Positions 42,049-64,000 of a stretch of 64,000 nt of DNA are shown piece after piece. A program made the translations under genes and the position numbers. Source of the DNA: Leifsonia sp. SCN 70-46 (GTDB taxonomy: Bacteria > Actinomycetota > Actinomycetes > Actinomycetales > Microbacteriaceae); the NCBI GenBank assembly GCA_001725325.1, contig MEFY01000002.1, positions 1,491,559 to 1,555,558 on the forward strand, in the 5' to 3' direction. Below the pieces are notes generated by a model. It saw only the letters and a program-made list of their open reading frames with translations, was not told the DNA's origin and searched no databases. The number at the start of each line of letters is the position of its first letter. Within the stretch, counting starts at the first letter, position 1.

Positions 42049-43014
42049 ATGGCCACCCAGCTCGAAGTCCCGACGATCTCGCTCGATCGCGACCCGGCGG
42101 CCGTGGGCCGCGAGATCGACGAGGTGCTGCGGACCGTCGGCTTCTTCCAGGTCGTCGACCACGGCGTCTCCGACGCGGTCGCCGACCGCTGCTGGCAGCT
42201 CACGCGCGCATTCTTCGACCTGCCCCTCGACGACAAGATGCCCATCGCGCGCGCCGAGGGCGGGCAGTTCGGCTACTTCCCGATGCTCGCGGAGTCGCTC
42301 GCCAACTCCCTCGACGCCATGGACAAGGGCGACCTCAAGGAGTCCCTCAACGTGAGCGGCGGGCTCGCGGTGGGCCACACGCCCGTCGACGCGACCGAGG
42401 CGAGCCTCTTCGCCGTGCCCCGCTGGCCCGAGGCACTGCCCGGGCTGCAGCCGGCGTGGCAGGCGTACATCGGCGAGATGCGCACCCTCGCCGACCGCCT
42501 CCTCTCGATCTTCGCGCTCGGCCTGGGCCTGCCCGCCGAGTACTTCGCCGACAAGGTCGACAGGGCGCCGGTGTCGCAGCGCGCCATCAACTACCCCGAG
42601 CAGGACACGGCGCCCGACGAGGGCGTGCTGCGCGCGGGCGCCCACACCGACTATGGCACGCTCACGATCCTGCGCCAGGAGCTCGGCCGCGGTGGACTGC
42701 AGGTGCACGACCCCAAGACCGACGCGTGGATCGACATCCCCTCGACCCCCGGCGCGCTCGTCATCAACATCGGCGACCTCATGGCGCGCTGGACCAACGA
42801 CCGCTGGACCTCGACCCTGCACCGCGTCATCAATCCGGATGTCGGCGAGCAGAAGTCGAACCGCCGCCAGAGCATGCCGTTCTTCCACAACGCGAACTAC
42901 TCCCAGGTCGTCGAGTGCCTGCCCAACTGCGAGGGCCCGAACGGCGAGCGCAGGTACGCGCCCGTGCTCGCGGGCCCGCACCTCATCGAGAAGGCGACCA
43001 AGGCGGTCGCCTAG
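42049..43014 (+). CDS. isopenicillin N synthase-like 2-oxoglutarate/Fe(II) dioxygenase
   Basis: An oxygenase of 321 residues. The N-terminal DIOX_N-like part (ISLDRDPAAVGREIDEVLRTVGFFQVVDHGV) is followed by the core with HTDYGTLTIL (Fe ligands His and Asp), STLHRV (second His) and NRRQS (oxoglutarate binding). It would hydroxylate or desaturate a small molecule. ATG 42049 is preferred because GGAGAG then has a proper distance. It may act on the aglycone or glycoside of the adjoining locus, but it has a LacI-like site instead of the shared TTATG palindrome. Confidence 0.85.
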   Translation: MATQLEVPTISLDRDPAAVGREIDEVLRTVGFFQVVDHGVSDAVADRCWQLTRAFFDLPLDDKMPIARAEGGQFGYFPMLAESLANSLDAMDKGDLKESLNVSGGLAVGHTPVDATEASLFAVPRWPEALPGLQPAWQAYIGEMRTLADRLLSIFALGLGLPAEYFADKVDRAPVSQRAINYPEQDTAPDEGVLRAGAHTDYGTLTILRQELGRGGLQVHDPKTDAWIDIPSTPGALVINIGDLMARWTNDRWTSTLHRVINPDVGEQKSNRRQSMPFFHNANYSQVVECLPNCEGPNGERRYAPVLAGPHLIEKATKAVA

Positions 43015-43037
43015 GGATATGTCTCCATCAGAGACAC

Positions 43038-43058
43038 TTATGCCTGAATCAGGCATAA
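43038..43058. promoter_or_regulatory. TTATG palindrome, site 1 (deglycosidase regulon)
   Basis: Perfect inverted repeat TTATGCCTGA, one A, TCAGGCATAA, 19 bp before the 43077 start. It is the best member of a group of five. Confidence 0.75.
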
Positions 43059-43076
43059 TTCTGGTACCGTCGGGAC

Positions 43077-44366
43077 ATGCTCCTTGAGAAAGACCTCATC
43101 CAGGCGACCGGGTTCCGCAACGTGCGCACGGGGGGTGAGGTCACGGGGTTCCAGCTGCGCGTGCGCATGCCGTCGTACCGCGGCATGGCGGCATCCCTGA
43201 TCGACGGCATCGCCGTGCGGGTCGGCACCCTCGTCGACGTCCCCGCCGAGGTGCCCCTGTGGACCTTCAACGGAACCACCTACACGCTGCAGCAGCTGTG
43301 GGCGTCCGACGGCGTCCGCTGGCAGCTCGAGGATGCGGCGGTCGTGACGGTCCCGTTCCCCGGAGGCCTGCCCGAGGGGGTGCACGAGGTCTCCATCGAG
43401 CTGCGGCTGCGGATGTCGTACATCCCGATCGAGCACCAGCCCACCATCGCGCGCTCGACGCGCCACATCACCCTGAGCTCCGACACCGACGGCGGACCGT
43501 TCCAGTACGGCGTCTCGCTCTACAGCTTCATGGGCGACTACGGCACCGTGCTCGACCTCGAGACGTCGCTCGCCGCCGTGGCCGACGTGAACGCGACGGG
43601 CATCGAGATCCTCGGCGAGGGCCACGTCGCGAACTACCCGAACCCGTCGACCGCGTGGATCGACGAGTGGTTCCGCCTGCTCGAGAAGTACTCGCTCACC
43701 CCCACCAACTACGGCTCGTGGATCGACACGCGCCTGCACCCCGGGCGCGGCCTGACCGCGGCCGAGGGCGCGGACATCCTGCAGCGCGACCTCAGGCTCG
43801 CCAAGCAGCTCGGCTTCTCGTTCGTGCGGCCGAAGATCGGCGTGGTCTCGAGCGACCTCGTGCCCGATCCGATCTGGGGCGAGGCGGTCGAGCGCAGCCT
43901 CGACCTCGCGCACGAGCTCGACGTCATCATCTGCCCGGAGATCCACTCGCCCACGCCCATCAAGCACCCGGTCGTCGACGACTACATCGAGCTCATCGAG
44001 CGCACCGGCACGAAGCACTTCGGCCTGCTCCTCGACACGGGCATCTTCCAAGACCGGCCCATCCCGCTCGCGCCCGGCCAGACCCGTGAGACGCGCCCCG
44101 CGTTCATGGACGGCATCGGCGTCGACCCGGCCGACATCGCCGACATCGCGAAGTACGTCGTGTTCATCCAGGCGAAGTTCCACGACATCGACGAGAACCT
44201 CGAAGACCAGCAGATACCGTGGGTGCCGGTGCTGCGCGCCCTGCGCGACAGCGGCTACACCGGCTACCTCTCGAGCGAGTACGAGGGCGACCGCATCCCG
44301 TGGCGCTCGATCGAACAGATCCGCCGCCAACACTCCCTCCTGCGCACGACCGTCGCCGAGCTCTAA
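43077..44366 (+). CDS. fused C-glycoside deglycosidase: beta-domain plus TIM-barrel alpha-domain, Gln variant
   Basis: A protein of 429 residues. Residues 1-135 form a beta-sandwich of the deglycosidase beta-subunit type (DUF6379-like, ending RLRMSYIPIEH). Residues 142-429 form a xylose-isomerase-like TIM barrel, the alpha-subunit type. In characterised systems (for example CarB/CarC of Microbacterium) these are separate proteins. Metal ligands by position are E288, D320 and E401, while the usual His of HVHAKF is Gln (Q365 in FIQAKF). This may change metal choice or activity. First gene of a three-gene operon under site 1. Confidence 0.78.
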   Translation: MLLEKDLIQATGFRNVRTGGEVTGFQLRVRMPSYRGMAASLIDGIAVRVGTLVDVPAEVPLWTFNGTTYTLQQLWASDGVRWQLEDAAVVTVPFPGGLPEGVHEVSIELRLRMSYIPIEHQPTIARSTRHITLSSDTDGGPFQYGVSLYSFMGDYGTVLDLETSLAAVADVNATGIEILGEGHVANYPNPSTAWIDEWFRLLEKYSLTPTNYGSWIDTRLHPGRGLTAAEGADILQRDLRLAKQLGFSFVRPKIGVVSSDLVPDPIWGEAVERSLDLAHELDVIICPEIHSPTPIKHPVVDDYIELIERTGTKHFGLLLDTGIFQDRPIPLAPGQTRETRPAFMDGIGVDPADIADIAKYVVFIQAKFHDIDENLEDQQIPWVPVLRALRDSGYTGYLSSEYEGDRIPWRSIEQIRRQHSLLRTTVAEL

Positions 44367-44374
44367 GGAACACC

Positions 44375-45847
44375 ATGCCCAACGGCCTCATCCACGAAGA
44401 CAGCCTCCGACTGCACCCGGACGGCTTCGCCGTGCAGCTCACGATCCCCTGGTACCGCAGCCTCTGGCTCTCGTCGGTGGTGAAGCTCGAGCTCGCCGTG
44501 CACGGCGAGCCCGTGGATCCTGCGGACATCGTGTTCGAGCTCGCGGGCACGCGCTACGCGCTCGACGAGCTCGCCGCGCAGACGGAGGTGCTCTGGTACC
44601 TGCAGCAGCACCCGCTGCTCATCGTGCGCCGCGAACCGGCCTTCGCGCTCGGCGAGACGCACGAGGTCCGCATCGTGGGCGAGCTGCGCCTGCCGTACAT
44701 GCAGATCGCGCCGGGCCAGGACGGCGGCCCCGGCCTCTACGTGCCCAACCACGTGCGCGAGAGCTACTCGCTCACCGTGACCGACAGGGATGCCCCGGCT
44801 CCCGCCCTCGCCCCGGCCGGCCCGCCGGCGCCCGCCGCGGAGGGCGACCCGTTCAAGCTCGGCCTCACCCTGTACTCCGCGAGCGCGGAGTTCCGCGCGG
44901 GTTGGTACGACTTCGACGCGCTGCTCGACCGCGTGGCCGAGCTGGGCATCGGGCCCGGCATCGAGATCAACGGCGCGCAGATGATCCCGAGCTACCCGCA
45001 CGTGAGCGACGAGTTCGTCGCGCAGTGGCGCTCGGCGTTCGACAAGCACGGCTTCGACGCGAGCTCGTTCGGCGCCAACCTCGACATGGGCCGCAACCGC
45101 CAGCGCGACATGACCCCCGACGAGGAGTTCGAGTTCAGCGAGCTCATGTTCCGCGGGGCGAAGAAGCTGGGCTTCCCGCTCGTGCGGATCCAGAGCGCGA
45201 AATCCGACCTGCTGCGCCGGCTCCTGCCGATCGCCGAGGAGCTCGAGCTAGACCTCGCCTACGAGATCCACGCGCCGATGGGCCCGAACCACCCGGAGAT
45301 CATGAAGGTGCGCGACACCTTCGCCGAGCTCGGCTCGCCCCTGCTCGGCTTCACCGCCGACTTCTCGTCGACCATGCACTCGATGTCGCCCACCCTGCTG
45401 CGCGCGCTGCGCCGCGCGGGGCTCGACGATGCGGCCCTCGAGACGCTGCAGGCGATCTGGGCGACCGACGCACCCATGCGCGAGCGCCAGGAGGAGTTCA
45501 TCGCCTACCTCACGGGCCGCGACTTCGATCCGGGCCGCCTCGGCTCGTTCGCGCACCTCTCGTTCAACATGCACGGCCATGTCGACCCCCACGAGTGGAC
45601 CGACATCATGCCCCAGATCAAGCACGTGCACGCCAAGTTCTACGACATCGACGAGCGCGGCCAGGAGCCCGCCATCGACTACCCGACCCTCGTGAAGGTC
45701 TTCGTCGACGGCGGCTACCGCGGCTACTGGTCGAGCGAGTGGGAGGGCCACGCCTTCGCCGAGCTCGGCGAGGTCGACCCGCTCGTGCTCGTGCGCAAGC
45801 AGCACGACCTCATCCGCGCGAGCATGCGCGCGGCGCAGGGACGGTGA
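44375..45847 (+). CDS. fused C-glycoside deglycosidase: beta-domain, linker, alpha TIM barrel
   Basis: A protein of 490 residues. The beta domain occupies residues 1-137 (IPWYRSLWLSSV; RLPYMQIAPG), an Ala/Pro-rich linker 138-157 follows, and the TIM barrel covers 160-490. All four expected metal ligands are present: E297 (YEIHAP), D329 (GFTADF), H419 (HVHAKF) and E455 (SSEWEGH). The two halves resemble the separate products of 56571 and 54778, so this is a natural single-chain version of that pair. It would cleave the C-C or C-O bond of a 3-keto-glycoside. Confidence 0.82.
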   Translation: MPNGLIHEDSLRLHPDGFAVQLTIPWYRSLWLSSVVKLELAVHGEPVDPADIVFELAGTRYALDELAAQTEVLWYLQQHPLLIVRREPAFALGETHEVRIVGELRLPYMQIAPGQDGGPGLYVPNHVRESYSLTVTDRDAPAPALAPAGPPAPAAEGDPFKLGLTLYSASAEFRAGWYDFDALLDRVAELGIGPGIEINGAQMIPSYPHVSDEFVAQWRSAFDKHGFDASSFGANLDMGRNRQRDMTPDEEFEFSELMFRGAKKLGFPLVRIQSAKSDLLRRLLPIAEELELDLAYEIHAPMGPNHPEIMKVRDTFAELGSPLLGFTADFSSTMHSMSPTLLRALRRAGLDDAALETLQAIWATDAPMRERQEEFIAYLTGRDFDPGRLGSFAHLSFNMHGHVDPHEWTDIMPQIKHVHAKFYDIDERGQEPAIDYPTLVKVFVDGGYRGYWSSEWEGHAFAELGEVDPLVLVRKQHDLIRASMRAAQGR

Positions 45848-46695
45848 CGGACGACTACCGCAGGATGCCCGTGCCCGACGCCATCCGCTGGCTGATCGAG
45901 CACGGGCATCCCGCCGATCCGCGCGACGACATCGACACGGCGTCGCTCGTGCGCAGGTTCCCCCGCCTCGGGAGTGTCGAGATCGCCGACGTCGACTTCG
46001 CCGTGCCGCTGCGCACCTACCGCGACCCGTCCGTGCCCTACGCGGGCCGGGGACTCGTGTGGGTGCACGGCGGGGCCTTCCTCGGCGGGAGCTTGGACAT
46101 GCCGGAGTCGCACTGGGTCGCGCTCGAGCTCGCGGCGCGGGGCATCCCCGTGCTCGCCGTCGACTACACGAAGTGCCTCGGCGTGCACTACCCGGTGCCC
46201 TCGGACGAGGTGCTCGCCGCGTGGGACGCCGCGCCGGCGCTCCTCGGCCTCGACCCCGCCGAGCTCGCGCTCGGCGGTGCGAGCGCGGGCAGCACCCTCG
46301 TCTCGGGAGCCGTCGTCCGCGGGGCGGCCCCCGCGGAGCTCGTGCTCGTGTACCCCTTCCTGCACCCGGACGGCCCCGGGGCGTCGGCGGACGTGGACCT
46401 CGGAAGCCCGCACGGGCAGCTCGCGCTCAACTACGCGGGGAGCTCCGAGGCCCTGCTCGACCCCGCGGTGTTCGCGGGACTCGCCGACCCCTCGCTCTTC
46501 CCGCCCACCCTCGTCGTCGTGTGCGAGGACGACGCGCTGCGTCCGTCGGGCGAGGCGTTCGCCGCGGCCGTGGGGGCGGACCTCCACCTGGAGCCGGGCG
46601 CGCGGCACGGCCACATCGACAACCCGGGCGACGACGGAGCCCTGCGCACGATCGCCGCGATCGCGGACTGGCTGGGCGGCCGGCCCTCGCGCTAG
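45844..46695 (+). CDS. alpha/beta hydrolase (HSL-type esterase)
   Basis: An esterase of 283 residues from GTG 45844, overlapping the fused deglycosidase stop. It has the oxyanion HGGAF motif (VWVHGGAFLGG), the nucleophile in GGASAGS, the Asp in CEDDALRPS and the His in RHGHIDNPG. It could remove acyl groups from acylated glycosides before cleavage. The 3' end overlaps the convergent SGNH hydrolase by 4 bp. Confidence 0.87.
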   Translation: MTDDYRRMPVPDAIRWLIEHGHPADPRDDIDTASLVRRFPRLGSVEIADVDFAVPLRTYRDPSVPYAGRGLVWVHGGAFLGGSLDMPESHWVALELAARGIPVLAVDYTKCLGVHYPVPSDEVLAAWDAAPALLGLDPAELALGGASAGSTLVSGAVVRGAAPAELVLVYPFLHPDGPGASADVDLGSPHGQLALNYAGSSEALLDPAVFAGLADPSLFPPTLVVVCEDDALRPSGEAFAAAVGADLHLEPGARHGHIDNPGDDGALRTIAAIADWLGGRPSR

Positions 46696-47825
46696 AGCGT
46701 CGCCCGCCAGTACGCCGCCATGCGCTCGCCCATGAGCCGGTACCCCGCGGGGTCCGGGTGCAGGGCGTCCGGCAGGTGCTCGAGGTCGTCCGGCCCGAAC
46801 AGCTCGCGGCCGTCGAGGTAGCGCAGCGCCGCATCCTCGCGCGAGCGCTCGGCGACCACCGTCTCGATGATGGCGCGGATGTCGCGCAGCGTGAGCTGGC
46901 CGTCGAGGGGCCGTCGGGCCACCGAGGTTCCGAGCGCCTGCCCCGTGGGGCTCCACTCCGTGGGCCCCGGGGCGTCCTCGTGGGGCGGGCAGACGATCGG
47001 CGAGATGAGCACGATGGGCGTGCGCGGGTGCCCCTCGCGGATCGTGTCGAGGAAGGCGTGCAGGGCGGGGATGAACGTGCGCACGCGGAACCCGCCCGTG
47101 TTGACCACGTTGATGCCCACCTTGAGCGAGATGAGGTCGGCGGGCGTGTCGCGGATCGTGCGTGCGACGAACCCGTCGAGCAGGGCGGAGCCCGCGAGCC
47201 CCAGGTTGACGAGGTCGAGGTCGAGGGACCGGGCCGTCACGACGGGCCAGACGCCGAGCGGCGAGTCCGCCTCGAGGCAGTGGCTGATCGAGCTGCCGTA
47301 GTGCACCCAGCGCGTCCGCGTGCGCGGGGCGGGGGCCAGCGTGTCGTCGGCCTCGAGGCCCAGGATCTCGACCCCGCTCGTGTGCGGGAGCCACACGGTC
47401 ACGCGGCGAGGCGCGGGCGCGGGCCCGAGGTCGATGTGGAGGGTGCTCTCGGAACCCGGCACGAGGGTCGTGCCGAGGTTCTCGTCGATGTGCTCCACGT
47501 CGCCCTCGTCGAAGCTGAAGTGCTGCTCCCGCCCGTCCGCCGTGACGGACACGACCGCGGGCCGCGGCGGGAACGGCACGAAGAAGAACGAGGTGCGCGT
47601 GAACCGGAGGCGCAACGACATCGACGACGCGGCGGTGTCGAACTCGAGCCGTACGCCGGAGTTCGCCGCCACCGTCGACCGGAACATCGGGTCCGCGCCG
47701 TCCTGCGCGCGCGTCCAGGAGGGGAGCCGCACGGGGGTGACGCCGCCCTCGCGGCCGGGCTCGGCGATGGCGCCGAAGAGCGCGGAACCGATCAGTGTCG
47801 CGAGCTCTGCGTTCGGAGAGGGCAT
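46692..47825 (-). CDS. SGNH/GDSL-type esterase with N-terminal beta domain
   Basis: A protein of 377 residues from ATG 47825. The N-terminal 170 residues are beta-rich; the SGNH fold follows with HYGSSISHC (the block I nucleophile Ser in GSS, instead of GDS), NLGLAGSALL, the Asn of KVGINVVN and DALHPDPAG (Asp and His). The family deacetylates carbohydrates. Its own TTATG palindrome (47846) ties it to the deglycosidase regulon. Upstream in-frame starts would run into that operator. Confidence 0.82.
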   Translation of the reverse strand: MPSPNAELATLIGSALFGAIAEPGREGGVTPVRLPSWTRAQDGADPMFRSTVAANSGVRLEFDTAASSMSLRLRFTRTSFFFVPFPPRPAVVSVTADGREQHFSFDEGDVEHIDENLGTTLVPGSESTLHIDLGPAPAPRRVTVWLPHTSGVEILGLEADDTLAPAPRTRTRWVHYGSSISHCLEADSPLGVWPVVTARSLDLDLVNLGLAGSALLDGFVARTIRDTPADLISLKVGINVVNTGGFRVRTFIPALHAFLDTIREGHPRTPIVLISPIVCPPHEDAPGPTEWSPTGQALGTSVARRPLDGQLTLRDIRAIIETVVAERSREDAALRYLDGRELFGPDDLEHLPDALHPDPAGYRLMGERMAAYWRATL

Positions 47826-47845
47826 GGCCAAGGATGCTAGCAGTC

Positions 47846-47866
47846 TTATGTCCGAATCGGTCATAA
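47846..47866. promoter_or_regulatory. TTATG palindrome, site 2
   Basis: TTATGTCCGA, one A, TCGGTCATAA with a single mismatch between arms, extended by C and G at the ends. It lies between the LysR gene end and the SGNH hydrolase start. Confidence 0.72.
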
Positions 47867-47870: not shown

Positions 47871-48821
47871 TCAGTCCTGGCCGTAGCGCTCCGCCTCGAC
47901 GAGGCGGCCCGCCTCGCGGAACAGCTCGCGCATCCACGCGTGCTCGGGGTCGCGACCGTGCATGGGATGCCACCACAGCGCGTTCACGAGCGGCGTCGCC
48001 TCGAACGGCAGGCGCACGACGCGCGTGCCGCCCGCGCGCATCATGGCCGGCGCGAGCGCGCCCTGGATGAGCCCGGCGCGATCGGTGCCCGTGATGAAGT
48101 GCGAGAGCGCGAGGAAGCTCTCGACGACGACCTCGACGCGCGGCTCGACGCCGAGCTGCTGGATCTGCCGGGCCGCCGACGTGAACGCCGAGCGCGACTG
48201 GAACGTCATGACCCACGGCATCGCGGCGATCTCGTCCATCGTGAGGGTGTCGCCCACGGGGCTCTCGTCGGCGACGATCGCGACCCAGTCGTCGTGCCAC
48301 AGGTCGACGAAGGGGAGGTCGGACACGTGGCCGTGGGGGATGACCATGCCGTCGGCGGAGCGCAGACGGTTCGCGACATCCTCGACGATCGTGGGGTTGT
48401 GCAGGGCGAAGCGGAAGCGCACGCCGGGGGCGCGCTCGGCGGCGAGCTCCGCGACCTTGCGGCCGATGGTGACGAACCCGTAGTCCGAGCCGTAGATCGA
48501 GAACTCGCGCGTGGACTCCGCGGGCTCCCACGTGGCCTGCGTCTCGAACACGCGGCGCGCCGCCTCGAGCGCGGTCGTGGTGTGCTCCGTGAGCCGCATG
48601 GCGAAGGGCGTGAGCTCGTAGGTGTTGCCCCGGCGGGCGAGGATGGGGTCGCCGAAGTGGGTGCGCAGGCGGGCGAGCGAGGCGCTCAGGGCCGGCTGGC
48701 TCAGGTGCAGGCGCTCGGCGGCGCGTGTGACGCTCTGCTCGGTGAGGAGCGCGTCGAGCGAGACCAGGAGGTTGAGGTCGAGGCGCGAGAGGAGGGAGTG
48801 GTCGGACACTGCTCCGGGCAC
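47871..48821 (-). CDS. LysR-family transcriptional regulator
   Basis: A regulator of 316 residues. The N-terminal HTH is clear (SVTRAAERLHLSQPALSASLARLR), with the effector domain like that of NodD/LinR-type aromatic-responsive regulators (IYGSDYGFVTIGRKVAELAAERAP). It may sense an aromatic aglycone such as a flavonoid. GTG at MPGAV-S is an alternative start. It is divergent from the isomerase/GMC operon across site 3 and is a candidate to bind the shared palindromes, whose TATG/CATA arms fit a T-N11-A box. Confidence 0.82.
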   Translation of the reverse strand: MPGAVSDHSLLSRLDLNLLVSLDALLTEQSVTRAAERLHLSQPALSASLARLRTHFGDPILARRGNTYELTPFAMRLTEHTTTALEAARRVFETQATWEPAESTREFSIYGSDYGFVTIGRKVAELAAERAPGVRFRFALHNPTIVEDVANRLRSADGMVIPHGHVSDLPFVDLWHDDWVAIVADESPVGDTLTMDEIAAMPWVMTFQSRSAFTSAARQIQQLGVEPRVEVVVESFLALSHFITGTDRAGLIQGALAPAMMRAGGTRVVRLPFEATPLVNALWWHPMHGRDPEHAWMRELFREAGRLVEAERYGQD

Positions 48822-48920
48822 CTCCTCGTGGTCGGGACTTCATTGTATAGCCGGGGCAAATGCCACGCCCGGGCGTATCCGGGCCAATGATGGTCTCTCT
48901 TATGCGCGGTTCGGAAATAG

Positions 48921-48940
48921 TTATGTCAGATTCATACTAA
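48921..48940. promoter_or_regulatory. TTATG palindrome, site 3 (degenerate right arm)
   Basis: TTATGTCAGATTCATACTAA keeps the left half and the centre; the right half is weak. It lies between divergent LysR and the 48988 operon. Confidence 0.55.
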
Positions 48941-48987
48941 TCTGTGCGAGGATGAGACAAACCTCACCGTCGAGCGCAGGAGCACCC

Positions 48988-51300: not shown

Positions 51301-51321
51301 TTATGTCTGATTAAGACATAA
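51301..51321. promoter_or_regulatory. TTATG palindrome, site 4
   Basis: TTATGTCTGA, one T, TAAGACATAA with one mismatch between arms. It starts 1 bp after the GMC stop and leads the nine-gene operon that begins at 51364. Confidence 0.72.
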
Positions 51322-52308: not shown

Positions 52309-52314
52309 GCGGCC

Positions 52315-53292: not shown

Positions 53293-53297
53293 CCCCC

Positions 53298-56557: not shown

Positions 56558-56570
56558 GCCGAGGACCATC

Positions 56571-56969
56571 ATGGCAACCCACAACTCGCTGTTCGCCGAG
56601 AGCGACGTGCATCGTCACCCCGAGGGCATCGCCGTCTCGATCCAGCTGCCCTGGTACCGCAGCCTGTGGCTGTCGTGCGTCGACACGGTCGGCGCGCGCG
56701 TCGACGGCGTCGACATCCCCACGGACACGCTGCGCTTCGAGCTCGCCGGCAAGAGCTACTCGATAGCCGAGCTGCCCGACCAGTGGGACACCCTGTGGTT
56801 CGTCGCCGACAAGCCCCAGGTGATCATCCCGCTCGAGCACGTGCCCGCGGCGGGCGACACGGTCGACGTCGACGTCACGCTGACCCTCACGCTGCGCTAC
56901 ATGCAGATAGCTCCCATGCGCTACGTGCCCAACCGCGTGCAGGTCGAGCGCGAGGTGGTGCTCGCGTGA
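56571..56969 (+). CDS. C-glycoside deglycosidase beta subunit, second
   Basis: A protein of 132 residues resembling the N-terminal domain of the fusion at 44375 (LPWYRSLWLSCVDTV; LRFELAGKSYSIAELPDQWDTLWF; LRYMQIAPMRYVPN). It would pair with the alpha subunit encoded at 54778. Its GTGA overlap with the Gfo/Idh/MocA gene couples cleavage and keto-sugar reduction. Confidence 0.82.
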   Translation: MATHNSLFAESDVHRHPEGIAVSIQLPWYRSLWLSCVDTVGARVDGVDIPTDTLRFELAGKSYSIAELPDQWDTLWFVADKPQVIIPLEHVPAAGDTVDVDVTLTLTLRYMQIAPMRYVPNRVQVEREVVLA

Positions 56970-58129
56970 CCAAGGCCCTCCGGGTCGCCATGATCGGCTA
57001 CGGCTTCATGGGCGCAGCGCACTCCCAGGGATGGCGGACGGCAGCGCGCGTGTTCGGGCTGCCCGCCGAGGTGGAGATGGCGGTCGTGGTGGGCCGCCAT
57101 GCGGAGGCGGTCGCGGACGCGGCAACCCGTTGGGGGTGGGCCGAGTCCGCGACCGACTGGCGCGAGGTCGTCGCGCGAGACGACATCGACATCGTCGACA
57201 TCGTGACGCCGGGCGACTCCCACGCGGAGATCGCCATCGCCGCCCTCAAGGCGGGCAAGCACGTGCTGTGCGAGAAGCCCCTCGCGAACTCGGTCGAGGA
57301 GGCGCGCGCGATGGCGGATGCCGCGGCGGAGGCCGCGGCCCGGGGCATCGTCGCCATGGTGGGCTTCACCTACCGCCGCGTGCCCGCGGTGACGTTCATG
57401 CGCGACCTCATCGCCGAGGGCGTCGTGGGTGAGGTGCAGCAGGTGCGCGCCGCGTACCGGCAGGACTGGCTCGTCGACCCGGAGATGCCGCTCGCGTGGC
57501 GCCTGCAGAAGGAGCACGCGGGATCCGGGGCGCTCGGCGACATCGGCGCCCACGCGATCGACACCACCCAGTTCGTCACCGGGCTCGCCGTGACCGCCGT
57601 CTCGGGCACCATCGACACGATCGTGACGAAGCGCCCGCTGCTGGGCGAGGGCTCCGGCCTCTCGGGCAGCGCCGCGGAGGGCTACGGCGACGTGACAGTC
57701 GACGATGTCGCGATCTTCACGGGACGCCTCGACAACGGCGCCCTGGTCTCGTTCGAGGCGACCCGGTTCGCGACGGGGCGCAAGAACGCGCTCACCGTCG
57801 AGGTGTCGGGCACGAAGGGCGCGCTCGCGTTCGACCTCGAGGAGCTCAACAGCCTCGCGTTCTACGACCGCACCGCGAAGTCCGACCGGCAGGGGTTCAC
57901 GAACATCCTCGTGACCGAGGCCGAGCACCCCTACGTGGGCGCGTGGTGGCCGGCCGGCCACATGCTCGGGTACGAGCACGGCTTCAGCCACCAGGTCAAG
58001 GACCTCGTGGAGGGAGTCGTCGCGGGCGCGGCCCCGCACGGCACGTTCGCGGAGGGGCTCGCCGTGCAGCGGGTGCTCGACGCGGTGGAGACCAGCTCCG
58101 CGCGGGATTCCGCCTGGGTGCAGATATAG
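56966..58129 (+). CDS. Gfo/Idh/MocA-family oxidoreductase
   Basis: An NAD(P)-dependent dehydrogenase of 387 residues from GTG 56966. The nucleotide-binding start is [18 protein letters not shown], the catalytic Lys is in VLCEKPLAN, and the late [14 protein letters not shown] matches the GxxxH motif of the family. In 3-keto-glycoside pathways enzymes of this family interconvert hydroxyl and keto groups of sugars, so it may reduce the released 3-keto-hexose. Third-last gene of the operon. Confidence 0.87.
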
Positions 58130-58139
58130 AGGAGTGGCA

Positions 58140-59147
58140 ATGGCGCGACCGGTAACACTGTTCACGGGCCAGTGGGCCGACCTCCCCTTCGAGGAGGTCG
58201 CGAGGCTGGCGGGCGAGTGGGGCTACGACGGCCTCGAGATCGCGTGCTGGGGCGACCACCTCGACGTGGCGCGCTGGGACGACGCGGAGTACGTCGCCGG
58301 CCGCCTCGCCATCCTCGAGAAGAACGGCCTCAGGGTCTTCACGATCTCGAACCACCTGGCGGGACAGGCGGTGTGCGACGATCCGATCGACGAGCGGCAC
58401 CGCGACATCCTGTCCGACCGCGTGTGGGGCGACGGCGACCCGGAGGGCGTGCGCCAGCGCGCCGCCGAGGAACTCACGCTGACGGCCCGCATGGCCGCCA
58501 AGCTCGGGGTGACGACCGTGACCGGGTTCACCGGCTCCTCGATCTGGAAGACCGTGGCGATGTTCCCGCCCGCGAGCGAGGCGATGATCGAGCGCGGCTA
58601 CCGGGACTTCGCCGACCGCTTCAACCCCATCCTCGACGTGTTCGAGGAGGTCGGCGTGCGCTTCGCGCACGAGGTGCACCCGTCGGAGATCGCCTACGAC
58701 TACTGGACGACCGTGCGCACGCTCGAGGCGATCGGCCACCGCGAGTCGTTCGGCCTCAACTGGGACCCGTCGCACATGGTGTGGCAGGACATCGACCCCG
58801 TCGGCTTCCTGTGGGACTTCAAGGACCGCATCTACCACGTGCACTGCAAGGACACGAAGAAGCGCCTCGACAACGGCCGCAACGGCCGCCTCTCGTCGCA
58901 CCTCGCGTGGGCCGACCCGCGCCGTGGCTGGGACTTCATCTCCACGGGCCACGGAGACGTGCCGTGGGAGAACGCGTTCCGCATGCTCAACGCGATCGGC
59001 TACTCCGGCCCGCTCTCGGTCGAGTGGGAGGACGCCGGCATGGACCGCCTCGTCGGCGCCCCCGAGGCGCTCGCCTTCGTGCGGCGCCTGTCGAGCTACG
59101 AGCCGTCGGACGCGGCCTTCGACGCCGCCTTCAGCACCAAGAAGTAG
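58140..59147 (+). CDS. sugar isomerase/epimerase-like TIM barrel
   Basis: A protein of 335 residues. Ligand positions: [10 protein letters not shown] (Glu), GLNWDPSHM (Asp), YHVHCKDTK (His) and LSVEWEDAG (Glu). This is like the enzymes often found beside Gfo/Idh/MocA genes in inositol and keto-sugar pathways. GAGGAG precedes the ATG. Last gene of the operon; a GC-rich hairpin (CCGCGG twice around 59163-59179) follows at the convergence with the next gene. Confidence 0.82.
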
Positions 59148-59169
59148 GCGCGGCGCGCGCCCCGCGGCG

Positions 59170-60150
59170 TCAGCCGCGGAGCGCGGCGCCCGCGAGGGCG
59201 AGGTGCCGTCGGGTCATGTCGGCGGCGGTCTCGTGCTCGAGCCATTCGTGGCCGCCCCACTCGCTCGTGAGGGTGCCGCTGAAGCCGCCGAGCTCGCGGG
59301 AGAGGTCGCGCAGCGGCTGGGAGACCCGGCCGTCGGTGTCGTCGAGGTCCCAGAACTTGAGGTGGAACGCGCCGACCCGGTCGAGGATGGGGCGGATGAC
59401 CGACACATCGCTGCGGCCGAAGCGCACGAGCAGGTTCATGTAGAGCGTGTGCACGTGCGGGGGCACGCCGCCCGAGCGCAGCAGGTCGACGACGGCCGCG
59501 TGGGTCTCGGGGGAGCGCCACTGCGTCTCCAGCCTCGCGACGAGGGCCTCGGGCACGCCGCCCGCGCGCAGCACCGCGAGGTAGCTCGGCGGGAGCGAGG
59601 GCATGAACATCGAGCAGTCGACGAGCACGCGCAGGCGGTCGTCGTCGAGCTCCTCGAAGATGTCGAGGGCCGCGCCCACGGCGGGGCTGTCGGGGGTCTG
59701 CTGGCCCTGGATCTCCTCGTAGAGCACGAGGTCGAGCTCGTGCAGCACCGGCAGCATGCGGCGCAGCAGGGATGCCCCCGCCTGCCCGAAGGGCAGCCGC
59801 AGCCCGCGCGCCCCCACGCGGTGGGCGGCGCGCAGCTGGGGCTCGAGGAACGCCGCGCGCGCGTCGTCGTCGAGCAGGGCGCCGTGGGGCGTCGCGTCGT
59901 CGAGGCTGCCGCCGACCATGCTGATCGATCCGCCGACGGCGTCGAGCTTCGCGCGCAGGGAGTCGAGCTCGCCGTCCGTCGAGCGCGGGAAGCCGCGGAA
60001 GGCCTGGCCGGGCTCGATCTCGACCGTGGAGGCGATGCCGTCGGCGACGATGCCGACGATGATGTCCTCGGTGGTGCGCTCGGCACGGATGATGTCGGGC
60101 GTCCAGTTGAAGGCGCTCGCGGCGAGGGTCCATGCGGTCGTGGATGACAA
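59170..60150 (-). CDS. divergent deglycosidase-alpha-like TIM barrel
   Basis: A protein of 326 residues. It keeps the alpha-type ligand positions (YEEIQGQQ for Glu, VLVDCSMF for Asp, FHLKFWDLDD for His, TSEWGGHEW for Glu) but differs strongly elsewhere. It is divergent from the beta-subunit gene at 60209 with a shared operator region, which suggests that the two make a third alpha/beta pair transcribed in opposite directions. Confidence 0.75.
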   Translation of the reverse strand: MSSTTAWTLAASAFNWTPDIIRAERTTEDIIVGIVADGIASTVEIEPGQAFRGFPRSTDGELDSLRAKLDAVGGSISMVGGSLDDATPHGALLDDDARAAFLEPQLRAAHRVGARGLRLPFGQAGASLLRRMLPVLHELDLVLYEEIQGQQTPDSPAVGAALDIFEELDDDRLRVLVDCSMFMPSLPPSYLAVLRAGGVPEALVARLETQWRSPETHAAVVDLLRSGGVPPHVHTLYMNLLVRFGRSDVSVIRPILDRVGAFHLKFWDLDDTDGRVSQPLRDLSRELGGFSGTLTSEWGGHEWLEHETAADMTRRHLALAGAALRG

Positions 60151-60191
60151 TTTAGTCCGATCATGACAAACTTATGTTTGATTCAGGATAA
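60151..60191. promoter_or_regulatory. TTATG palindrome, site 5, plus a second weaker copy
   Basis: TTATGTTTGATTCAGGATAA (60172-60191) is a version with one base lost in the right arm. TTTAGTCCGATCATGACAAA (60151-60170) directly precedes it and is a weaker relative. The pair lies between the divergent genes at 59170 and 60209. Confidence 0.55.
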
Positions 60192-60208
60192 AGCAGGAAG
60201 GACCGGAC

Positions 60209-60613
60209 ATGCAATCAGCACTCCGCGAGGATGCCCTCACCTCCGTCGACGGCGGCATCGCCGTGCGCGTGGGCCTGCCCTGGATCCGCTCGCTCCCGCT
60301 CGCGTGCCTGCGCGAGCCCGCGATCACCGTCGACGGCGTCGCCGCCCCCACGGTCCTCGTGGGGGATCGGCGGCTCACGCCCGAGCAGCTCGTCGACGAG
60401 GGCGGCTGGTGGTTCGCGCAGGACCGTGTCGTGCTCACGGCCCCGGTCGGGCTCCCGGCGGGGGAGCACGACGTCGTCGTGACGTTCCGCCTGCTCATCC
60501 CGTACCTCATGGCGGGCCCGGGCGGCGGACCGCTCGAGCTGCCCATGCGCGTGGCCGGGCGCCTGCTGCTCGACGCTCCGGCGGTGCCGAGCGTCTCCCG
60601 CGACGTCGCCTAG
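60209..60613 (+). CDS. C-glycoside deglycosidase beta subunit, third
   Basis: A protein of 134 residues with the beta-subunit frame: GIAVRVGLPWIRSLPLACL at the start, EQLVDEGGWWFAQDRVVL in the middle and VVVTFRLLIPYLMAGPGG at the end. AGGAAGGA before the ATG supports the start. It is divergent from the alpha-like gene and converges on the ROK gene with a 4-bp overlap. Confidence 0.78.
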   Translation: MQSALREDALTSVDGGIAVRVGLPWIRSLPLACLREPAITVDGVAAPTVLVGDRRLTPEQLVDEGGWWFAQDRVVLTAPVGLPAGEHDVVVTFRLLIPYLMAGPGGGPLELPMRVAGRLLLDAPAVPSVSRDVA

Positions 60614-61905
60614 GCGCTGAGCGCGGGCGCCACGGCGTGGGTCGCCGCGATCGACGGTCGGCCCTCCGCGAACCAGCGGGGGAACGTGAGGTCGAAGAGC
60701 TGCTCGCGCACGAGGTCGGCCCCGCCGCGCAGCGGCTCGCGCACGTCGTCGACCGACTGCACGATGCTCAGGTCGCGCGTCGCGAGCGGGAGCGAGAGCT
60801 CGTAGACGCGCTGGCGCACCTCGGCGAGGAACAGCTCGCCCGCGGCGGCGACGGCACCGCCGATGACGATCACGCCGGGGTTGAACATGTTGACGAGCGC
60901 CGCGATGGCCTCGCCCACGTCGCGCGCCGAGCGCTGGATGAGGCCGATGGCGAGCGCGTCGCCGTTCTCGGCCGCGCGCGCGATGGTCTCGGGACGCGGG
61001 CCCTGGCCGTCGTGCGATGCCTGCGCGAGCGACCCCGTCGCGCCCCCCGCGATCGCGGCCTCGGCGTCGCGCACGAGCGCCCAGCCGCCGGCCACGGCCT
61101 CGAGGCAGCCCACCTTGCCGCAGCGGCAGGGCGCGTCCGACTCGCGCACGCGCACGTGCCCGATGTCGCCGGCAGCGCCGTTGGCGCCGCGGTGGATGCG
61201 GCCGTGCGAGAGCAGCCCGGCGCCGATGCCCGATCCGACCTTGCAGTAGATGAGGTCGGGGTTCTCGTCGCGGCGCCGCGCGCGCTCGCCCAGGGCGAGG
61301 AGGTTCACGTCGTTGTCGACCCACACGGGCGCCTCGTAGTGCTGCTCGAAGCGGCGCCGCAGGTCGAAGCCGTTCCACCCGGGCATGATGGGCGGCGCGA
61401 CGGGCCGCCCGGTCTCGAAGTCGACGGGACCGGGGATGCCGACGGCCACACCCCACACGGGAGCCTTCGGTCCGCGCGACAGCAGCTCGTCGATCATGCC
61501 CATGGCGGCGTCGAGCGTCTCGGCCGGTCCGCGCGCGATGTCCCACTCGCGGTGGGTCTGGTCGAGGATGTCGCCGTCGAGGGCCGCGATGCCCACGTGG
61601 ATGTGCAGGGCGCCGAGCGCGCACACCGCGATGATGCCGCGCTCGCCGCGGAAGCGCAGCGTGCGCGGGGCGCGTCCGCCGGAGGACGGGCCGAACTCGC
61701 CGTCCTCGAGGTAGCCGAGCTCGATGGCGTGGTCGACGCGCTGCGTGACGACCCCGCGGCCGAGTCCCGTGACCCTGCCGATCTCCGGGCGGGTCATCGC
61801 CTCGCCGGTCCGCACCATGTTGACGATGCGCAGGAGGCTCGTCATCTCATCCGTTTGCGCTCCGAAGCGCAGGGTCGACTCAGTGGCCATGGCCAATGGT
61901 GACAC
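60610..61905 (-). CDS. ROK-family transcriptional regulator
   Basis: A protein of 431 residues. An N-terminal winged helix (LRIVNMVRTGEAMTRPEIGRVTGLGRGVVTQRV) is followed by a ROK sugar-kinase-like fold with the zinc motif CRCGKVGCLE and GDIGHVRV. ROK repressors sense sugars or sugar phosphates. The start is GTG 61905; ATG 61890 is an alternative. It probably tunes the locus to sugar supply and competes with the LysR as the protein that binds the TTATG palindromes. Confidence 0.85.
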   Translation of the reverse strand: MSPLAMATESTLRFGAQTDEMTSLLRIVNMVRTGEAMTRPEIGRVTGLGRGVVTQRVDHAIELGYLEDGEFGPSSGGRAPRTLRFRGERGIIAVCALGALHIHVGIAALDGDILDQTHREWDIARGPAETLDAAMGMIDELLSRGPKAPVWGVAVGIPGPVDFETGRPVAPPIMPGWNGFDLRRRFEQHYEAPVWVDNDVNLLALGERARRRDENPDLIYCKVGSGIGAGLLSHGRIHRGANGAAGDIGHVRVRESDAPCRCGKVGCLEAVAGGWALVRDAEAAIAGGATGSLAQASHDGQGPRPETIARAAENGDALAIGLIQRSARDVGEAIAALVNMFNPGVIVIGGAVAAAGELFLAEVRQRVYELSLPLATRDLSIVQSVDDVREPLRGGADLVREQLFDLTFPRWFAEGRPSIAATHAVAPALSA

Positions 61906-61956: not shown

Positions 61957-61973
61957 CAACTTAAGTATAGTTG
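61957..61973. promoter_or_regulatory. inverted repeat between ROK and Gfo/Idh/MocA genes
   Basis: CAACT-N7-AGTTG. CACAACTT occurs again near 61904, next to the ROK start. This differs from the TTATG sites and may be the ROK autoregulatory operator. Confidence 0.4.
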
Positions 61974-62017
61974 CGGCGTAACGATGGTAGATTTCCCCCA
62001 AAGTGAGGGTGGCGAAG

Positions 62018-63037
62018 ATGGTGCACGGAGTCGGGATCATCGGCGCGGGGCCCGGTGTGCGGTCGCTGCACCTGCCCACGCTCGCGCGGCTCGCCGACCG
62101 GTTCGCCGTCGTGCACGTCGCCGACTCGGGCTCGGGCGCCGCGGGCGAGCTCGCGGCGCAGGTCGGGGCGCGGGCATCCTCGGGTGTCGACGACCTGCTC
62201 GCCGACCCGGCCGTCGAGGTCGTCGCCGTCTGCAGCCCGCCCGCCCTGCACGCCGAGCATGTGCTCGCGGCGGTCGCCGCCGGGGCCAGGGCCGTGCTGT
62301 GCGAGAAGCCCATAGCGCTCACCGAGGATGACGCCGAGGCCGTCATCGCCGCGTGCCGCACGGCGGGCACGCGCCTGCTCGTCGGCACCAACCACCTCTT
62401 CGACCCCGCGTGGGGAAGGGCCAAGCACCACCTCACGGGACCGGTCGCCACCGTGTCGGTCACGATGGCGCTGCCGCCGAACGGGCGGTACCACGCGCTC
62501 GTGAGCGAGCCCGCCGCGACCCAGCCCGTGCACCGGGCCCCCGACTGGACGAACCCGCACGTCGCCGCGGCCGTGCTGCGGCAGCTCGTGCTCGGGCTCG
62601 CGGTGCACGACCTGCCCGGGCTGCGCGATCTCGTGCCCGAGGTCGACGAGGTGCTCTACGCGCGGCGGATCGAGCCCATCGGGTATGAGATCGGGATGCT
62701 CGGCGGCGACACGCTCGTGCAGCTCACGGCGGTCATGCTCCCCGAGGGGGCGGACGCGCTGTGGCGCATGAGCATCGCGACCTCTCTCGACCGGCTCGAC
62801 GTGGAGTTCCCTCCCGCCTTCGTGCACGTGGGCAGCGCCCGCGCGCGCGTGTGGGCGACCGACGGCAGCGTGACCGACTACCGGCAGGATCCCGACGACG
62901 GCTACGTCGCCGAATGGCGCGCGCTCGACGCGCTCCTCGCGGGCGGGGTCGCCGTGGAGTACGACCACCTGCTCGACGACGCGCTCTACGCGATCGGCCT
63001 CGCCGACGCCGTGCACGAGGCGGTGATCGCGGCATGA
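62018..63037 (+). CDS. Gfo/Idh/MocA-family oxidoreductase, second
   Basis: A protein of 339 residues from ATG 62018, with GAGGG 8 nt upstream; an earlier GTG at 62003 is possible. The nucleotide-binding motif is VGIIGAGPGVRSLHLPTLARL and the catalytic Lys is in VLCEKPIALTEDD. The GxxxH region is changed (LGLAVHDLPGLRDL). It is coupled with the unknown gene at 63034 (ATGA). Its substrate is probably a keto-sugar or glycoside of the locus. Confidence 0.82.
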   Translation: MVHGVGIIGAGPGVRSLHLPTLARLADRFAVVHVADSGSGAAGELAAQVGARASSGVDDLLADPAVEVVAVCSPPALHAEHVLAAVAAGARAVLCEKPIALTEDDAEAVIAACRTAGTRLLVGTNHLFDPAWGRAKHHLTGPVATVSVTMALPPNGRYHALVSEPAATQPVHRAPDWTNPHVAAAVLRQLVLGLAVHDLPGLRDLVPEVDEVLYARRIEPIGYEIGMLGGDTLVQLTAVMLPEGADALWRMSIATSLDRLDVEFPPAFVHVGSARARVWATDGSVTDYRQDPDDGYVAEWRALDALLAGGVAVEYDHLLDDALYAIGLADAVHEAVIAA

Positions 63038-63684
63038 GGGCCGTGCGCACCGACGAGCTCGCGTACCGCGTCGCCGTGGCCGAGCTGCCGCGGCGCGCGG
63101 TGCTCGGCGACGGGCCCGACGCCGTGCGCATCGCCGGGGGAGTGCTCGAGGCCGAGGGGGTGACCGTCGTGGCGCGGCCGTGGCTGCGCCCCGACGTCGT
63201 GGCCGACGCGGCCCAGGCGCCCGCGCGGTCCGTGCTCGTGGAGTGCGGCGCGGCGTCCGGCGAGGTGGAGGAGCTGCTGCGCGACGCCGTCGGGTGGGCG
63301 CGCGAGCTCGCGGGCGGCCCGCTCGACATCGTGGAGTGCCGGGCGACGGCGCGCGGCATCCTCGCCCGCCTCGAGGGCGCGCGCAGCGGCGCGACGGTGC
63401 TGCTCGCCCGGCGCGAGGGGGGCAGCTCGTGGCTGCGCGCCCTCGCGCTCGACACGACGCGCACCGAGGTCGTCATCGAGCACCCGGGCGCCCTCGCGAC
63501 GGTCGAGCGCACCGACGCTAACGGGGTGCACCGGTCGCCCGCGCGCTACGAGAGCGCCGAGCGGCTCGCCCTGCGGCGCCTGCTCGACGCCCTCGACGAC
63601 GACGTGCGGACCACCGACCTCGACGACCTCGAGCACGACAGCAGGCTCGCCGCGCACGTGCTGGGACTCGTGCGCGCGGGATAA
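63034..63684 (+). CDS. uncharacterised protein coupled to the Gfo/Idh/MocA gene
   Basis: A protein of 216 residues that I do not recognise. It has alternating short strands and helices, no transmembrane segment and no known catalytic motif, and ends with an acidic helical region (LDALDDDVRTTDLDDLEHDSRLA). The ATGA overlap with the upstream oxidoreductase and the usual codon pattern support a real gene. It could be a partner subunit or accessory domain for that oxidoreductase. No function is proposed. Confidence 0.65.
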   Translation: MRAVRTDELAYRVAVAELPRRAVLGDGPDAVRIAGGVLEAEGVTVVARPWLRPDVVADAAQAPARSVLVECGAASGEVEELLRDAVGWARELAGGPLDIVECRATARGILARLEGARSGATVLLARREGGSSWLRALALDTTRTEVVIEHPGALATVERTDANGVHRSPARYESAERLALRRLLDALDDDVRTTDLDDLEHDSRLAAHVLGLVRAG

Positions 63685-63789
63685 ACGACAGCGATACGCG
63701 GGATAGCCAACCGGCCATTCCCTGATGAGCGTGACGCTCCCACAGTAGGTACGGGGACAACCCCGGACACGTCTTTGAAAGGATCGACG

Positions 63790-64000
63790 ATGATCAAGCT
63801 CCTCTCCCACCTCTCGTTCGTCGCGGTGTCGTCACCCGACGTCGAGGCGTCTGTGGCCTTCTACGAGAAGCAGGTCGGCCTCACCGTCGTCGACCGCATC
63901 GACGGCTCCGTCTACCTGCGCTGCTGGGGCGACTACTACTCCTACAGCGTCGTCGTGGTGCCGGGCACCGAGCCCGGGCTCGTGACGATGGGCTGGCGCA
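63790..64000 (+). CDS. VOC-family (extradiol dioxygenase-like) protein, 5' part only
   Basis: The first 70 codons of a vicinal-oxygen-chelate protein, cut by the right edge. The start LLSHLSFVAVSSPDVEASVAFYEKQVGLTVVDR has the conserved His and the beta-alpha-beta layout of catechol 2,3-dioxygenase N-terminal modules. GAAAGGA precedes the ATG. A GAGCG-TGA-CGCTC hairpin lies at 63727-63739 in the leader. If it is a true extradiol dioxygenase, it would open the aromatic ring of the freed aglycone. Confidence 0.75.
   Translation, partial: MIKLLSHLSFVAVSSPDVEASVAFYEKQVGLTVVDRIDGSVYLRCWGDYYSYSVVVVPGTEPGLVTMGWR

Follow-up and report, generated by a model that had tools for sequence, protein, structure and literature searches.

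A probable conserved actinobacterial island for plant C-glycoside catabolism carries a divergent deglycosidase-like pair

Enzymes that break sugar–carbon bonds are few and have mostly been studied singly or in twos. In the soil-type bacterium Leifsonia sp. SCN 70-46, a 64,000-nucleotide stretch of contig MEFY01000002.1 (the window) holds five paralogous units resembling deglycosidases of the CGD type, which raises the question of what the locus as a whole is for and whether all five units do the same thing. A sequence-only reading had proposed a catabolic locus with three split and two fused deglycosidases in a 20-kb regulon of one organism. Its core, a CarA-type oxidase with several CGD units and sugar and aglycone genes in one locus, is supported here, and the locus is very probably an island, conserved among actinobacteria, for the catabolism of plant C-glycosides. 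The features are as follows.

42043..43014, +, 2OG-Fe(II) dioxygenase (DIOX_N and 2OG-FeII_Oxy; Pfam), probably outside the conserved island
43038..43058, no strand, 21-bp palindromic operator-like site TTATGCCTGAATCAGGCATAA before FUS1 (whole-genome scan)
43077..44366, +, FUS1, fused CGDB and TIM barrel of the Microbacterium testaceum CGD type (Pfam, PDB match)
44372..45847, +, FUS2, fused CGDB and AgCGD2-like TIM barrel (Pfam, PDB match)
45850..46695, +, alpha/beta hydrolase (Abhydrolase_3; Pfam)
46692..47864, −, GDSL-like esterase (Pfam)
47846..47866, no strand, operator-like palindrome with 3 mismatches, overlapping the GDSL gene start (genome scan)
47871..48821, −, LysR-type regulator (Pfam)
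48900..48941, no strand, two weak palindrome copies (6 and 5 mismatches) in the LysR/TIM_A gap (scan)
48985..49782, +, TIM_A, hydroxypyruvate-isomerase-like barrel (Pfam, NCBIfam, synteny)
49779..51299, +, GMC1, predicted C-glycoside 3-oxidase (CarA/PsG3Ox, clade IV-like; PDB matches, residues)
51301..51321, no strand, operator-like palindrome ahead of the 51364–59147 gene run (genome scan)
51364..52308, +, TIM_B, sugar isomerase/dehydratase-like barrel with weak IolE similarity (Pfam, NCBIfam)
52315..53292, +, TIM_C, sugar isomerase/dehydratase-like barrel (Pfam, NCBIfam)
53298..53693, +, B3, CGD beta subunit (Pfam CGDB, 52.9 bits)
53690..54781, +, A3, CGD alpha subunit of MiCGD/CarB pattern (7dnm_A match, spacing)
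54775..55809, +, A4, CGD alpha subunit, AgCGD2 orthologue (identity, synteny)
55793..56557, +, SnoaL-like protein (Pfam SnoaL_4, synteny)
56571..56969, +, B4, CGD beta subunit, partner of A4 (Pfam CGDB, 53.7 bits; synteny)
56966..58129, +, GFO1, Gfo/Idh/MocA, levoglucosan-dehydrogenase-like (Pfam, NCBIfam)
58134..59147, +, HKGH, candidate 2-hydroxy-3-keto-glucal hydratase (PDB matches)
59170..60150, −, A5, CGD-like alpha subunit (7dnm_A match, residues)
60172..60192, no strand, operator-like site with 4 mismatches in the A5/B5 gap (scan)
60209..60613, +, B5, divergent CGD beta subunit, partner of A5 (CGDB, 24.9 bits; fusions)
60610..61905, −, ROK-family protein with an extra N-terminal part, NagC-like (Pfam, NCBIfam)
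62003..63037, +, GFO2, second Gfo/Idh/MocA oxidoreductase (Pfam)
63034..63684, +, HYP, conserved protein of no known family (synteny)
63790..64000, +, VOC extradiol-dioxygenase-like gene, start only (Pfam Glyoxalase)

The island spans about 33 kb; its first two thirds lie within the window, and the approximately 12 kb past the window end carry ring-cleavage genes, a second, MPOx-like GMC oxidase (GMC2) and transporters. Rather than being peculiar to one organism, it recurs in relatives: CGDB is present in 27 of 398 genomes of the family, 21 of these 27 carry at least four copies, and the island also occurs in Arthrobacter globiformis and Microbacterium trichothecenolyticum, source species of published enzymes. 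Some of the loci compared are the same DNA taken twice (for example, L009 and L029). Because no match to either the 42043 dioxygenase or the GDSL esterase is listed for the searched loci of relatives, the conserved island seems to start at 43077, and the dioxygenase was set aside as a member.

The gene content listed in the sequence-only reading is confirmed. CGDB (PF19906) is found at 43077, 44372, 53298, 56571 and 60209, the only matches at E ≤ 0.001 in the whole genome; four of the five exceed the Pfam cut-off and the fifth, B5, scores 24.9 against 27.6. The nine xylose-isomerase-like barrels (the FUS1 and FUS2 alpha parts and the genes at 48985, 51364, 52315, 53690, 54775, 58134 and, on the minus strand, 59170) comprise eight Pfam matches and 59170, which has no Pfam barrel match and was assigned through its PDB match. 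The two Gfo/Idh/MocA genes (56966 and 62003), the two esterases (alpha/beta hydrolase and GDSL) and SnoaL_4 are likewise Pfam matches. Similarities of 433, 726 and 796 bits to solved enzymes exclude chance for the assignments.

Four units—FUS1, FUS2, A3/B3 and A4/B4—each combine a CGDB beta domain with a xylose-isomerase-like alpha domain and, judged by their residues, look like ordinary deglycosidases. In AgCGD2 numbering, the metal ligands are E147, D179, H269, K271 and E305, and the base H149 acts with the helper E307; FUS2, A3 and A4 retain all seven residues and FUS1 six, with Gln replacing His at 269. The same Gln occurs in 8qrz, a solved relative of FUS1, and in all nine FUS1-type rows aligned. 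FUS1 is short (His–Glu spacing of 113) and matches 8qrz_A, titled M. testaceum CGD, over its full length at 726 bits. Fused CGDs are therefore already known, 8qrz/8un2 being a natural single-chain M. testaceum CGD with the same beta–alpha layout and 74–75% identity, from which FUS1 shows no decisive difference; in two relatives (G054 and G128) the FUS1 counterpart is split into two genes. FUS2 matches 7dnm_A at 433 bits, and its alpha part is 58% identical to that of AgCGD2 (AgCarB2-C2, PDB 7dnm/7dnn) and shares its catalytic residues, the difference being the fused beta domain. A4 is 84% identical to the AgCGD2 alpha subunit; in A. globiformis, the gene at the syntenic position encodes a protein 100% identical to 7dnm_A, which makes A4/B4 the orthologue in the same island, and B4 and the SnoaL gene are syntenic with relatives' loci. 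A3 (191 bits to 7dnm_A) has the His–Glu spacing of 166 and lies near a CarA-like oxidase, both shared with MiCGD/CarBC of Microbacterium sp. 5-2b, an assignment made by spacing, residues and position. The catalytic pair of MiCGD is described as H147/E313 (PMC8563793).

The oxidation that would precede cleavage is represented by GMC1, which scores 796 bits against 7qf8 and 748 against 7dve, which we take to be the PsG3Ox and CarA C-glycoside 3-oxidases. GMC1 shares their catalytic His and Asn (His438 and Asn482, both present as had been claimed) and a like substrate loop, ASPIPV; by these features it is classed as a CarA-type C-glycoside 3-oxidase. To this the island adds GMC2, which is 40% identical and has an MPOx-like loop. 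TIM_A (150 bits to its NCBIfam model; cut-off, 353) adjoins the GMC oxidase in relatives too.

Downstream of cleavage, HKGH is a candidate 2-hydroxy-3-keto-glucal hydratase and GFO1 a candidate 3-keto-glucose reductase. HKGH matches 8ro4, named 2-hydroxy-3-keto-glucal hydratase, at 115 bits over residues 20–318, and 2zds, a 'putative DNA-binding protein' in the PDB, at 546 bits; GFO1 scores 339 bits against an NCBIfam model with a cut-off of 650. The similarity behind both calls is moderate: HKGH is far closer to 2zds and GFO1 falls below its cut-off. The AtOGE/AtHYD/Gfo operon of Agrobacterium tumefaciens shares the order of oxidation, elimination, hydration and reduction, and HKGH matches the 8ro4 hydratase; AtOGE and the CGDs are not related in sequence, however, and the available description of that operon contains no aglycone module. 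Here the VOC ring-cleavage gene starts at 63790, is cut by the window end and is read whole at L007:349-1365; it scores 233 bits against a catechol 2,3-dioxygenase model (cut-off, 320) and was matched in 50 of 80 loci at a loose threshold with flanks cut at 10 kb. The fde and ifc flavonoid genes are described as using a FAD monooxygenase and a glyoxalase-fold dioxygenase in A-ring cleavage (PMC11069340), a pairing of functions also predicted here. The cyclase and FAA hydrolase would have aglycone roles. HYP (63034) has no Pfam match above cut-off and is kept syntenically in relatives' loci.

The gene families, the metal-site and catalytic residues, the conservation of the island and the confinement of strong palindromes to it are all read in the sequence; the substrates, reaction directions, regulator and any A5/B5 activity are inferred. 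Glycosides would be imported and oxidized at the sugar C3 by one of the two GMC oxidases, and the 3-keto-glycoside would be cut through beta-elimination by one of the four metal-dependent CGD units, which vary in their length and in the residues of the pocket. The 2-hydroxy-3-keto-glucal product would be hydrated by 58134 and the hydrated sugar reduced to glucose by 56966, while the aglycone would pass to a FAD hydroxylase, extradiol dioxygenase, cyclase and FAA hydrolase. That the island instead serves mainly O-glycosides or other sugars, with C-glycosides incidental, is very unlikely: CarA-type oxidases are reported to take O-glycosides as well, at a much lower rate (PMC10646112), but four CGD units carry the His/Glu pair, and AgCGD2, orthologous to A4/B4, is reported to deglycosylate 3'-oxo-orientin (PMC12141560).

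A whole-genome scan placed the 21-bp palindrome at three genome places, all within the island, with only two near-perfect palindromes in this genome. The mismatch counts are 3 at 47846, 6 at 48900, 5 at 48921 and 4 at 60172; ten simulated sequences of equal length gave one 6-mismatch site and none better, so that the 48900 copy is near chance level. Copies also lie ahead of island genes in many relatives, including before B5, although 38 of 100 loci surveyed (overlaps included, and mismatch counts without a shuffled control of their own) lack a site at ≤5 mismatches. As the palindrome is confined to the island and recurs before relatives' island genes, it supports a shared regulon; this part of the 20-kb regulon proposal stands, and its extent does not, the island being about 33 kb. 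In this genome, no site with ≤6 mismatches precedes GFO2/ROK, the VOC run, GMC2 or the ABC importer, and their place in the regulon thus rests on relatives. The regulator that binds the palindrome and would tie the transcription units together is most likely the ROK protein (155 bits to NCBIfam NagC from residue 37; cut-off, 650), which was matched in 74 of 80 loci; it could be LysR instead.

The fifth unit departs from this scheme. The layout of three split pairs and two fused units is as had been read, but A5/B5 lacks the catalytic His and helper Glu (His149 and Glu307 of AgCGD2) and is better kept apart from the ordinary deglycosidases. The pair is divergently transcribed (alpha on the minus strand, beta on the plus strand), an arrangement unmentioned in the earlier reading. 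A5 scores 98 bits to 7dnm_A and keeps E147, D179, H269, K271 and E305 while carrying Gln for His149 and Gly for Glu307, in 11 of 11 rows of a set gathered by tblastn without patterns and in 79 of 79 rows of a larger set. The latter comprises the window A5 and 78 sequences from 80 loci (hits below 100 bits or 200 residues left out) picked by two peptide patterns, the first of which fixes Gly307 and the second His269 and Lys271, so that it is biased at these three positions and unbiased at Gln149; the distant A5-like genes of two genomes (G042 and G255) are not among the residue rows.

A5 and B5 are naturally fused in frame in 28 of the 77 loci in which both were matched and are neighbours in the rest; 29 had been flagged as fused, and L105 was dropped with its A5 in pieces. 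In a Foldseek search with a predicted model, both parts of a natural A5–B5 fusion match CGD chains in fold; YcjR, of the 3-keto-glycoside epimerase type, follows far below the CGDs at E of about 3e-7. The two subunits are predicted to act together. In a tree of 36 sequences with midpoint rooting, the A5 clade has a support of only 0.6, and in the relatives examined the genes that separate A5 from HKGH give no common hint except a ThuA-like gene. A5 is in pieces in G249, G383 and loci L103, L104 and L105 (the last being G383), but gene decay in general was rejected: the metal residues never vary, and in different genera A5 is either joined to B5 or next to it. The C-glycoside literature searched, incomplete in coverage, names no CGD with a lost catalytic His.

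With its palindrome copy in the promoter region, its CGD fold and its metal site, A5/B5 probably works on 3-keto-glycosides through a different route that dispenses with the standard His base, and may do something new, having kept the metal site and lost its relatives' catalytic residues. Tentatively, it could be a specialized 3-keto-glycoside eliminase for which the metal, Lys271 and the keto group suffice, with easy leaving groups as substrates, such as O-glycosides or dihydrochalcone glycosides arriving through GMC2, the MPOx-like oxidase. The His→Ala mutant of PuCGD is reported to keep 10.4% activity, so the catalytic His is not absolutely needed; in the same report, however, the His and Glu mutants of MiCGD fell to 1.8 and 1.9% (PMC8563793), and AtOGE H134A is described as inactive. 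The metal ligands and Lys271, kept in all 79 rows, fit elimination, as does the reported use of aspalathin and phlorizin by the clade II oxidase MPOx (PMC11673046), but spontaneous deglycosylation has been reported for some 3-keto-O-glycosides (PMC12724307), so an enzyme would bring little gain for them. A5 is present in 24 of 33 genomes (21 at ≥50% identity, two of them in pieces, and three at 32–34%), all 24 of which carry a GMC2-like oxidase at ≥55%; one genome has GMC2 but no A5 and eight have neither. This co-occurrence is not independent of descent or of the rest of the island. Pairing A5/B5 with GMC2 on its strength (24 of 25 GMC2-like genomes have A5) was set aside, as most of these genomes also have the larger island and it proves little.

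It is doubtful that A5/B5 is a 3-keto-glycoside epimerase in which the metal-bound glutamates 147 and 305 shift the proton beside the keto group, for example converting 3-keto-galactosides to 3-keto-glucosides for cleavage by the canonical units. Whole-fold likeness to epimerases is common to CGDs in general, inspection of A5 by eye did not show the extra His and Arg found in tagatose epimerases, and the retained beta subunit, whose role in CGDs is substrate binding, would be unneeded by an epimerase of free sugars. More broadly, there is a small chance that A5/B5 typifies a new and widespread enzyme class on the CGD scaffold, two-domain and metal-dependent, whose members are 3-keto-glycoside epimerases or do without the His in some other way; if so, it would reshape the oxidized C-glycoside sugar before the canonical units cut, and the island could use C-galactosides and other non-gluco C-glycosides. 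A role as a sensor or decoy, binding C-glycosides without catalysis and encoded beside the ROK gene, is also improbable: in its favour, the catalytic pair is gone, the B5 and ROK ends overlap by 4 bases and ROK is close to the unit in most loci of relatives, yet a pure binder would have no need of invariant metal ligands and Lys271, and the Pfam scan of A5 and B5 gave no DNA-binding domain. A probable action on 3-keto-glycosides without the His base is the reading we retain.

Most parts of the island are already known; A5/B5 may be the exception. Here the natural unit is an island, found also in species that yielded published enzymes, that combines five paralogous units with two oxidases, branches for the sugar and the aglycone, and a control site in common, and its operator offers a direct handle for finding inducers. 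The conserved A5/B5 pair departs from the accepted residue rule of the family and would show what its metal site is capable of without a His base.

Every element listed in the sequence-only reading was recovered in the window through Pfam and PDB matches; only the VOC ring-cleavage gene is incomplete: it starts at 63790, and the window ends inside it. The window is part of a contig of a 3.12-Mb genome, and the DNA continuing past it carries the remainder of the VOC gene, then a PF04199 cyclase, a FAD_binding_3 monooxygenase and an FAA hydrolase (Pfam), and further on an MFS transporter, a second GMC oxidase (GMC2), a SnoaL_2 protein, an ABC importer (the solute-binding protein, SBP, and first permease recognized by Pfam, the second permease by translation only) and a MoaF protein. 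The proposed single locus stands but its proposed size of 20 kb does not: it spans about 33 kb from FUS1 to MoaF, runs past the window and is present in other genomes too. Very probably, this is a C-glycoside catabolic island. Its principal features within the window are as follows.

43077 (FUS1) and 44372 (FUS2): fused units, C-glycoside deglycosidase (CGD) β-domain (CGDB, PF19906) with TIM barrel
47871..48821, minus strand: LysR gene
48985..49782: TIM_A, barrel
49779..51299: GMC1, GMC oxidase
53690/53298 and 54775/56571: α/β pairs A3/B3 and A4/B4
56966..58129 and 62003..63037: GFO1 and GFO2, Gfo/Idh/MocA genes
58134..59147: HKGH, candidate 2-hydroxy-3-keto-glucal hydratase
59170 (minus)/60209 (plus): A5/B5, divergent fifth pair
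60610..61905, minus strand: ROK gene

Just upstream (36752–40327) lies what looks like an arsenic-resistance block, with translations that we take to be an ArsR-like repressor, an aquaglyceroporin-like protein and a flavin-dependent oxidoreductase; an MFS gene is its sole database-matched member.

FUS1 matches PDB 8qrz_A over its length (726 bits), an entry released in 2025 under the title of a Microbacterium testaceum C-glucosyl deglycosidase; single-chain CGDs were therefore already known. The FUS1 counterpart is two separate genes in two genomes (G054 and G128). The second fusion, FUS2, has an α-part 58% identical to AgCGD2, and A4/B4 is, as judged from sequence, the AgCGD2 orthologue, because the gene that takes the place of A4 in the Arthrobacter globiformis island has 100% identity to PDB 7dnm_A across 330 residues. 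In A3/B3, the catalytic His–Glu spacing is 166, as in MiCGD and against 158 in AgCGD2 (58 of 59 rows). All seven residues named in the available text of PMC8563793 are present in FUS2, A3 and A4; in FUS1, His269 is replaced by Gln, as in 8qrz, with the other six kept. The same text calls MiCGD C6-specific and has AgCGD2 acting on C8-glycosides, preferences that may carry over to the window units. FUS2 (44853–45817) and A4 (54812–55776) share 70–76% identity at the DNA level along extended blocks that keep a fixed distance of 9959 bp, a pattern as after duplication within the locus; such an event would not be young, because both are kept in several genera.

The step order published in the accessible part of PMC10628242 is oxidation, β-elimination to 2-hydroxy-3-keto-glucal, hydration to 3-keto-glucose and reduction to glucose, and each step would have a candidate gene in the island. 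By eye, HKGH and 8ro4, the named hydratase, have the motifs E-x-H, D, H-x-K and E-W-E in common, a set also used by CGDs, which fits hydration as elimination in reverse. The nearest model to GFO1 is levoglucosan dehydrogenase, at 339 bits, below the cut-off of 650. Aglycones may be processed by the FAD monooxygenase and glyoxalase-fold dioxygenase in a manner resembling A-ring cleavage; by gene family rather than sequence comparison, these recall the A-ring route of the fde/ifc genes (excerpts of PMC11303751 and PMC11069340). GMC1 and GMC2 are 40% identical. Set against loops quoted in PMC11673046, GMC1 has ASPIPVADD where PsG3Ox has ASPVPLADD, and the VPPFQL of GMC2 corresponds to NPPFQL in MPOx, an enzyme of clade II; by the same paper, both clades are also represented in Microbacterium sp. 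3H14, by one oxidase each, at 40% identity.

Within the genus, 2 of 27 genomes have CGDB; in the family it is present in 27 of 398 genomes and 14 of 85 genera (at least four copies in 21 of the 27), and in a phylum sample that includes our own genome it is present in 5 of 396. Gene content was much alike across 12 mapped relatives' regions, apart from genes that are lost, split or rearranged. Five CGDB were counted in A. globiformis NBRC 12137 and six in M. trichothecenolyticum DSM 8608; the available text of the 2021 paper (PMC8563793) names two CGDs of the former and one of the latter, and so leaves most of these units undescribed. Four CGD subunit genes are shown near PsG3Ox in the part of PMC10646112 available. 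Two contigs bearing this actinobacterial island are labelled Planococcus sp. APC 4015 (L042) and Stenotrophomonas maltophilia P13 (L071), and are possibly misnamed or contaminated. One genome (G383; L028, L105) gives eleven CGDB matches, with several island genes in pieces and some matches seen twice, near both contig ends, which suggests sequencing errors or decay, and perhaps an overlapping circular end.

A 21-bp palindrome, TTATGyCTGAwTCAGrCATAA, precedes FUS1 and the 51364–59147 run, and a weaker copy stands at 47846; at up to 3 mismatches the genome has no site beyond these three, and the reversed pattern (genome) and 100 window shuffles gave 0. The stretch between LysR and TIM_A holds two weaker copies, with 6 and 5 mismatches, and another, with 4, is found between A5 and B5; in this genome no copy with up to 6 mismatches precedes GFO2/ROK, the importer or the VOC run. 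Copies at up to 5 mismatches occur in 62 of 100 relatives' loci. With no more than two genes counted per site, each within 400 bp downstream, the copies precede B3 (34), B5 (23), GFO2 (7), VOC (7, six inside the ROK match), FUS1 (6) and ROK (6), and less often A5 (5), LysR (4), TIM_A (4), SBP (4) and MFS (2). ROK is probably the likelier candidate regulator, because it was matched in 74 of 80 loci as against 20 of 80 for LysR, although the 10-kb flanks may miss LysR.

The A5/B5 pair keeps the metal ligands, with Gln for the catalytic His149 and Gly for the helper Glu307 (AgCGD2 numbering). Our leading, if tentative, reading is a His-independent eliminase; an epimerase is somewhat less probable, and a non-catalytic role is unlikely. 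In two relatives, a gene whose product presumably resembles ThuA lies between A5 and HKGH (L022:12088–13308; L060:10972–11844). A Rhodoluna genome bin (L108:3767–12423) has a distant A5-like gene next to a divergent gene of B5 type that reaches just 11.6 bits for CGDB; an α-L-rhamnosidase (GH106, 741 bits) lies on one side, a GH43 enzyme on the other and a GMC2-like oxidase nearby; this neighbourhood hints at rhamnosylated glycosides as substrates.

That the island belongs to a known kind is well supported, and it is larger and occurs more widely than was visible from the window; its unusual elements are the A5/B5 unit, which is conserved, and an operator specific to the island.
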